64,000 bases of DNA from assembly GCA_963678705.1 (NCBI GenBank), contig OY783214.1:15252001-15316000 (forward strand). The letters run 5' to 3'. Positions within the stretch are counted from its first letter, which is position 1, and the number at the start of each line of letters is the position of its first letter. A program made the translations under genes and the position numbers. Source of the stretch: Panorpa germanica. Its lineage: Eukaryota > Arthropoda > Insecta > Mecoptera > Panorpidae. Positions 38,932 through 39,715 of the stretch are shown piece by piece. The notes beneath the pieces were generated by a model. It was not told where the DNA came from, made no database searches, and worked only from the letters and a program-made list of their open reading frames with translations.

Positions 38932-38933
38932 TA

Positions 38934-39129
38934 CAGGGTGTCCAGAAAGGGTATCGGGTATTTGTTTTCGCGCCATATTCGAAACGGGGAGTCTAAAGGG
39001 TGCGGGGAGGGGTTCGTGGCGTCCGCCATTCTGTGGAGTTTTAGTCACGATGGAACAGTACTCGGGGATGCATCGCGCATTTTGCGTACGAGCGTATTAT
39101 CGTAATGGTGATTCAATAGTGACTGCTCA
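38934..39129 (+). repeat. Left arm of the snap-back element
   Basis: This 196-bp segment comprises the terminus, the 5' untranslated region and the first 27 codons of the transposase frame. It is repeated inverted at 39518-39713. Confidence 0.9.
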
Positions 39130-39407
39130 ACGTCTATATCGTACACGCCACGCACCAAGTGACGATAGCATTAGGAAATGGATCAGGATGTTCGAGAATA
39201 CATCAAAAAATCGTCTTTACATTACATTTTAAAGAAAGACTTACATCTAAAAGCCTATAAAATTCAATTGGTTCAAGAATTGAAGGATACGGACTAAGAA
39301 TATCGATAGCTATGTGTCAACGTGTTATCGCCAATCTTCGTTTCCGTTTAGAAGAGTGCCAGCAACGTAACGGTCATCATTTGGATAACGTCATCTTTTC
39401 CAAATAA
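39050..39407 (+). pseudogene. Deleted mariner-type transposase remnant
   Basis: The ATG at 39050 opens a 60-codon frame beginning MEQYSGMHRAFCVRAYYRNG, resembling the N-terminal helix-turn-helix (DUF4817-type) found in insect mariner-like transposases. After a frame change the sequence encodes LHLKAYKIQLVQELKDTD and, after stops and a deletion, NLRFRLEECQQRNGHHLDN ending at TAA 39405-39407; both match the style of internal and C-terminal transposase segments. The DDE/D catalytic core is absent. The protein is not functional. Confidence 0.8.
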
Positions 39408-39483
39408 TTCTCCAATTCATATGCTAATAATAAACAATAAACTTTTTTATTGCATACAAATAATTTTTGTTTCATTGAACTTA

Positions 39484-39512
39484 CAAATACCCGATACCCT
39501 TTCTGGACACCG
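39484..39512 (-). repeat. Internal relic of the original right terminus
   Basis: On the minus strand this reads GGTGTCCAGAAAGGGTATCG followed by GGTATTTGT, the same as the first bases of the element without its terminal CAG. It marks where the ancestral element ended before the inverted addition. Confidence 0.85.
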
Positions 39513-39517
39513 CAGAA

Positions 39518-39713
39518 TGAGCAGTCACTATTGAATCACCATTACGATAATACGCTCGTACGCAAAATGCGCGATGCATCCCCGAGTACTGTTCCATCGT
39601 GACTAAAACTCCACAGAATGGCGGACGCCACGAACCCCTCCCCGCACCCTTTAGACGCCCCGTTTCGAATATGGCGCGAAAACAAATACCCGATACCCTT
39701 TCTGGACACCCTG
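39518..39713 (-). repeat. Right arm of the snap-back element
   Basis: This is the inverted copy of 38934-39129 with one mismatch. Its minus strand again carries the transposase start codon and the first 27 codons, which generates a chance 103-codon frame running out through the junction. Confidence 0.9.
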
Positions 39714-39715
39714 TA

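Follow-up and report, generated by a model that had tools for sequence, protein, structure and literature searches.

A snap-back derivative of a DD41D Tc1/mariner transposon in Panorpa germanica, with a candidate origin at a cut right end

How does a transposon whose relatives end in short inverted repeats come to carry long inverted arms, with a terminus that resembles its old right end stranded just inside one of them? The question is raised by a 780-bp element at 38934-39713 of the window, a 64,000-nucleotide stretch of the Panorpa germanica genome (assembly GCA_963678705.1, contig OY783214.1, positions 15,252,001 to 15,316,000 of the forward strand). The element has TA dinucleotides outside both ends, two inverted arms of 196 bp (38934-39129 and 39518-39713) with a single mismatch between them, and a relic of an ancestral right inverted terminal repeat (ITR) inside the right arm. 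An earlier note, made from the letters of this stretch, had described each of these features, and all are confirmed here; its coordinates for the relic, 39484-39512, were off by one and become 39483-39511. The parts of the element and its immediate surroundings, with the strand where one applies, are as follows.

38932-38933, no strand: left TA target-site duplication, from the sequence and the TA flanks of the copies
38934-39713, plus strand: non-autonomous 780-bp snap-back transposon, a derivative of the 913-bp form (described below) by a 133-bp internal deletion
38934-39129, plus strand: left arm, the ancestral 5′ 196 bp, which holds the start of the transposase reading frame and has a C-to-A change at 38990
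38937-38965, plus strand: core of the outer left ITR, 29 bp
39200-39202, plus strand: 3-bp microhomology at the breakpoint of the 133-bp deletion, seen as the overlap of two matching blocks in the 913-bp copies
39297-39298, plus strand: breakpoint of the large internal deletion, common to the 925- and 913-bp forms and flanked by parent positions 508 and 1088
39299-39512, plus strand: ancestral 3′ region, parent positions 1088-1301
39483-39511, plus strand: 29-bp relic of the ancestral right ITR, with the same sequence as the outer core at 39682-39710
39513-39517, plus strand: filler CAGAA at the snap-back junction, 5 bp (6 bp, GCAGAA, if 39512 is counted)
39518-39713, minus strand: right arm, parental positions 196-1 inverted
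39682-39710, plus strand: core of the outer right ITR, which repeats the relic in the same orientation 199 bp away
39714-39715, no strand: right TA target-site duplication, from the sequence and the TA flanks of the copies

The arms differ because this copy alone has changed from C to A at 38990, in its left arm; the right arm retains the parental base. Parental copies end in ...GGACACC followed by GTG or TTG and then TA; the window copy reads ...GGACACC-GCAGAA-TGAGCAGTCAC..., of which the last part is parental sequence from 196 to 1, inverted. The relic therefore keeps at most one of the three parental end bases, the G at 39512, the base with which a GTG end would begin. Since the parental right-end base varies, this G may be parental or may belong to the filler, and the end of the relic is not fixed to the base. 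The longest ATG-initiated frame on the plus strand of the window copy is 60 amino acids. The element has the attributes of a miniature inverted-repeat transposable element (MITE), in that it lacks a complete transposase frame and exists in several copies of the same structure (the 12 junction copies described below). The predicted fold of its transcript, at -481 kcal/mol compared with a mean of -191 for 20 shuffles, restates the inverted repeat. The suggestion in the earlier note that the arms are a possible siRNA source has this predicted hairpin as its basis.

To whom is this element related? Relatives were scored at 40 of 211 candidate places, and both ends were read in 24 full-length copies (L015-L027 and L029-L039; L028 is broken at its right side), with L040-L042 serving as context. 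These relatives are ~1303 bp long (range 1239–1312 bp, n = 24) and have short ITRs, TA on both sides in all 24 cases, and no 196-bp arms. Their left ends consist of CAG or CAC and then GGTGTCC, and their right ends are either GGACACCGTG (the GTG type, 18 copies) or GGACACCTTG (the TTG type, 6 copies). All six copies with TTG right ends (L030-L033, L038, and L039) have CAC at the left end.

An uninterrupted frame of 359 amino acids with D155, D250, and D292 is present at 11 of the 25 loci L015-L039 and is a possible helper transposase. Between D250 and D292 lie 41 residues, the DD41D spacing of rosa elements, rather than the 34 residues of the classical mariner DD34D. In Pfam, the frame matched PF16087 (helix-turn-helix) above the cut-off and DDE_3 at 24.3 bits, below the cut-off of 28.6; its best match among solved structures (PDB) was Sleeping Beauty (E = 8.4e-14). 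On the strength of spacing, Pfam, and structure match, we assign the parental element to the DD41D (rosa-like) sort of Tc1/mariner transposon, and it has both the terminal inverted repeats (29-bp core) and the cognate DDE/D transposase of that superfamily. The description of the window element as a mariner derivative in the earlier note is to be corrected accordingly.

To learn where else the junction occurs, the 464-Mb genome (249 contigs) was searched with a 39-bp pattern of the junction between the relic, the CAGAA filler, and the inverted 5′ part, allowing up to three mismatches. The pattern was found at 12 sites, 11 of them exact and one with a single mismatch, and because the reversed pattern gave no match anywhere in the genome, the junction recurs above chance. 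The 12 loci (L001-L011 and L013, which appear again as L043-L054) are spread over nine contigs (C1-C7, C11, and C226). Nine copies (L001-L008 and L010) have both ends and a TA on each side, the target-site duplication of the Tc1/mariner superfamily; the right tip is missing from L009 and the 5′ part from L011 and L013. The flanks differ where they adjoin the element, and some have repeats in common further out. Since one junction is present at 12 loci, nine of them with TA-flanked ends in different flanks, we conclude from the sequences that the snap-back form itself has transposed. The earlier note had proposed a genome search for the junction as the way to decide this matter, and its central claim, that an inverted copy of the 5′ end lies beyond the original 3′ end and is used as the new end, is borne out by the short-ended relatives, the 12 junctions, and the TA at nine of them. 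From the common termini and TA flanks, we infer that the parental transposase mobilized these copies in trans.

In seven copies (L001-L006 and L008), changes in the arms are always confined to one arm. The arms of L007 are three substitutions and one gap apart, and those of L010 have one difference in the 170 bp compared. The near identity of the arms had been attributed to either a recent event or gene conversion. On the pattern of these changes, the arms point to a recent origin; arm-to-arm conversion is unsupported, as no change is common to both arms in the seven copies.

The junction copies also form a size series. L010 (1459 bp) has the junction together with almost the whole parental body, from which it lacks 39 bp and 4 bp. 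L004 (925 bp) has the junction and the large internal deletion, and shows neither the 12-bp deletion nor the T-to-A change seen in the 913-bp forms. The large deletion and the 12-bp deletion occur together in L002, L003, L005, and L006 (each 913 bp), L007 (911 bp), L008 (914 bp), and L009, and the T-to-A change at the breakpoint is found in all copies that have both deletions, other than L008, in which the sequence is altered there. The window copy has the large deletion, the 12-bp deletion, and the T-to-A change, as well as a 133-bp deletion of its own with 3-bp microhomology. These features suggest an order of events in which the snap-back came first (as in the 1459-bp L010), followed by internal deletion (925 and 913 bp), and then by the window copy. 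That L010 precedes L004 is parsimonious rather than proven, and L010 is unscorable for the 12-bp deletion, its own 39-bp deletion covering the site. The window copy, which had been taken to be a snap-back product, belongs to the snap-back lineage; it would be a shortened derivative of the 913-bp form and not the primary product. Because L002, L003, L005, and L006 differ from one another at only 1 to 7 positions in 913 bp, we judge the spread of the 913-bp copies to be recent.

A polymorphism in the body, at column 288 of the alignment, is split among the snap-back copies in a way that runs against a simple tree. Because of this conflict, exchange between snap-back and full-length copies is possible. 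A tree of the copies, built without L011, L013, and L028-L039, contained too little variation and gave conflicting placements.

Could the snap-back be undone? L012, a 714-bp copy with TA on both sides, has the body of the 913-bp form, including the 12-bp deletion and the T-to-A change, and has no outer arm. Its right end is CTG, like that of the outer arm, and over its 714 positions the copy differs by 2 substitutions from what L002 would give if it were cut at the relic and CTG were added. L012 may represent a collapse back to short ends via recombination between the two 29-bp direct repeats. This reading is weakened because family members differ in the third base from the right end (G, T, or C) and because L075 and L077 also carry CTG, which makes three places (L012, L075, and L077) where ancestral 3′ sequence ends in exactly CTG. 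L075 (G000:C1:1382247) and L077 (G000:C17:2323844) are 5′-truncated and retain body sequence that the 913-bp form lacks; both could have arisen by collapse of full-length snap-backs or could represent an independent end variant. L012 has no snap-back junction and is located within an older inverted repeat (~80% identity). This repeat was considered as a trace of the snap-back event and rejected, as it is too diverged.

In the genome as a whole, the ends of the family (up to three mismatches) matched at 160 left and 153 right sites, with no match for the controls. Pairing within 3 kb was assessed among 100 of the 160 left ends and 100 of the 153 right ends, those listed. Of these 100 left ends, 61 pair with a listed right end, the partner in the junction copies being the relic. 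The commonest class of pair among the ends listed is 905 bp (17 pairs), followed by 1303–1304 bp (12 pairs). There are also seven left-left pairs and no right-right pairs among these ends, and six of the seven are junction copies. The seventh (L055 546-857; G000:C5:10737145-10737456) is a 312-bp near-palindrome with TA on both sides, laid out as parental 1-131, a 2-bp AT, and inverted 179-1, with no relic. Either a further deletion in a snap-back copy or a second event may have produced it. A separate copy, L014 (G000:C8:9782665-9783401), is 737 bp long and has its own internal deletion and ordinary ends. A search of a plasmid collection gave no match.

If the snap-back form is a derivative of a short-ended element, how did it arise? 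We favor, with moderate confidence, an account in which a recently active DD41D Tc1/mariner transposon gave rise to the non-autonomous form by a cut at the right end and inverse copying of the left 196 bp, after which the form was mobilized in trans and later shortened. The transposase would have cut the right end of one near-full-length copy, and the strand ending 2–3 nucleotides inside the terminus would have been extended through a short filler (5–6 nucleotides) and then, as an inverted copy, by the left 196 bp of that copy or of a sister element. A second left terminus would thereby have been placed outside the old right terminus, where it could serve as the new end. Transposase acting in trans would then have carried this unit, with a left end on either side, to new TA sites; deletions in its interior would have shortened it to 925, 913, and then, in the window, 780 bp, and one copy may have lost its outer arm again through recombination between the two 29-bp direct repeats. 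The transposase cut as trigger, the template switch, the mobilization in trans, the order of events, and the collapse are the parts of this account that we infer.

The position of the junction bears on the trigger. The relic stops 2 or 3 nucleotides short of the parental terminus. The first nick of Sleeping Beauty and mariner is reported, in the available text of the source, to fall 3 nucleotides inside the element (PMC7827188), and for the Tc1/mariner family the nick is placed two to three nucleotides inside, with the other strand cut at the tip (PMC7827188; PMC2170065). Since the relic ends where this nick would fall, a transposase-cut end probably started the snap-back. Within the family, the right end of L009 has lost its terminal 26 bp and continues with a repeated GGCGCG, after which the left flank is copied in direct orientation; this damage looks like repair involving two template switches and would be a parallel for template switching at a right end. 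A donor locus, in which the right flank would be the inverted left flank, was not found among the 12 loci over the 474–1500 bp of flank compared. For the filler, there are 7-base matches in the arm interior (CAGAATG) and at parent position 617 (GCAGAAT), neither of them significant. As a mechanism, gap repair or template switching is plausible.

The same final structure would also result if two copies lay near each other in opposed orientation and a deletion brought the right end of one up against position 196 of the other (L...R-relic-L′), after which the composite transposed from its outer ends. A like origin, from nearby or head-to-tail copies and abortive gap repair, has been proposed for rearranged mariners of Rhodnius in the portion of that report available (PMC4678618), and the abundance of the family, with its 160 left-end and 153 right-end matches, favors fusion of neighboring copies. 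However, fusion would require that a breakpoint fall within 2–3 bp of the terminus by chance, unless the end was cut by transposase, with at most 5–6 bp of filler between the joined parts, and no opposed copies with facing right ends were present within 3 kb among the 100 of 153 right ends listed. We regard fusion as a real possibility, although an unlikely one. The earlier note had named two findings that would overturn its interpretation, one of them being that all family members have 196-bp inverted ends and no internal relic. Long-TIR DD40-41D elements do exist in aphids (the LTIR group; PMC5490172, as far as its available text describes them), and the inner relic could then be a chance or regulatory repeat, but all 24 full-length relatives read at both ends carry short ITRs without 196-bp inverted arms, and the junction, which includes filler, is found at just 12 places. 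Together these observations rule out ancestral ends of ~196 bp, to which we attach hardly any credence. The other was an assembly artefact; although inverted repeats can mislead assemblers, one junction with identical filler recurs at 12 loci on nine contigs, within different flanks and in several size classes, which rules out this explanation and leaves it practically no chance.

It is also conceivable that the order of events was reversed, so that a short deleted element such as L012 came first and gained an arm, and L010 and L004 later regained their bodies by conversion. The column 288 polymorphism hints at exchange between copies, and CTG right ends exist outside the snap-back group. However, this order requires two separate conversions of the body (in L010 and in L004), and L012 has the derived 12-bp deletion and T-to-A change in common with the 913-bp forms, and we consider it very unlikely. 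An early snap-back with subsequent shortening is the order that we retain.

Mariner MITEs rearranged in this general way have been published before, and what the present case adds is the intermediate forms and the position of the junction at the nick site. In the available portions of Wallau et al. (2014; PMC4161770), seven sublineages of Drosophila mariner MITEs are described in which the 3′ part has been replaced by 5′ sequence, one rearranged MITE has two TIRs in its 3′ region, and the origin of the rearrangement is called elusive. Like the Panorpa copies, the Drosophila Dromar7, Dromar11, Dromar28, and Dromar36 lineages are non-autonomous and amplified and have long TIRs, both ends consisting of 5′ sequence; the two TIRs in the 3′ region are a feature of the most abundant rearranged Drosophila MITE, as they are of the Panorpa element, and 23 of the 27 Drosophila MITE sublineages, at 900–970 bp, are near the size of the 913-bp form (PMC4161770). 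Whereas the 3′ part of the Drosophila MITEs is described as replaced (PMC4161770), it is retained as the relic in the 12 junction copies; the separate 312-bp L055 does have its 3′ portion replaced. The Panorpa set differs further from the Drosophila MITEs, as these are described there, in that it includes a near-full-length snap-back and a copy, with a single 3′ TIR, that may have collapsed, and in its transposase class, DD41D. No near-full-length snap-back intermediate of a mariner was named in the literature searched, which was judged mostly by titles and the starts of abstracts and included few subscription journals.

Other systems resemble the Panorpa element in part. In Rhodnius prolixus, Rpmar49 and Rpmar17 also have long TIRs that arose by one end replacing the other, in a mirror case in which the 5′ part was replaced by 3′ sequence; most copies of Rpmar17 are described as differing in breakpoint, in contrast to the single common junction found here (PMC4678618, available text). 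The aphid rosa DD41D elements are similar to the parent in their spacing, their length of ~1.3 kb, and their ~30-bp TIRs, and the LTIR DD40-41D group, which is related to rosa, has long TIRs; however, complete LTIR copies are described with TIRs of ~460 bp, whereas long arms are seen here only in copies that lack a complete transposase frame (PMC5490172). Among elements with two direct-repeat sites in each inverted repeat (IR/DR), we compared Sleeping Beauty (PMC7827188) and Bari2 and Bari3 (PMC4877112; PMC8834629), as described in the available parts of these sources. In Sleeping Beauty, the TIRs measure ~220 bp and the inner repeats are shorter by 2 bp (PMC7827188); in Panorpa, the right-end repeats are 199 bp apart and the inner one is without its terminal 2–3 bases. 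Unlike IR/DR elements, the Panorpa element has its inner repeat at the right end only, with two sites on the right and one on the left. Sleeping Beauty is stated to require all four sites (PMC7827188), and the relic is at most a putative binding site. Galileo is described as another element with expanding TIRs, from a different superfamily (PMC4168063).

Much of the series is present in one genome, from short-ended relatives with uninterrupted frames and a near-full-length snap-back to copies that were shortened and spread, together with a candidate reversal and the near-palindrome of 312 bp. Because the junction coincides with the nick site expected for the transposase, the origin can be tested: template switching and fusion predict different donor loci. 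It is conceivable, if rather improbable, that a single repair accident at a cut end turns a short-ITR element into one with an IR/DR-like end, in which an inner site in the same orientation lies ~200 bp away without the 2–3 terminal bases that cleavage would have removed. Should the relic bind transposase, this would be a directly observed route from short-TIR to long-TIR IR/DR transposons such as Sleeping Beauty and Bari3, and if the IR/DR reading were true, recombination between the direct repeats would be a way back.

Two further observations concern the window and the family. On the minus strand of the window, 286-1848 holds an open frame of 520 amino acids, which no other frame in the window exceeds at a cut-off of 110 amino acids. 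A common non-autonomous class of the family, at 905 and 1090 bp, has an unrelated insert of ~212 or ~398 bp between parental 1-187 and 797-1303. In L056 (687-898) and in the middle of L057, this insert consists of a ~185-bp tandem unit, with one extra copy in the 1090-bp form, and the unit is possibly a satellite seed inside a transposon.
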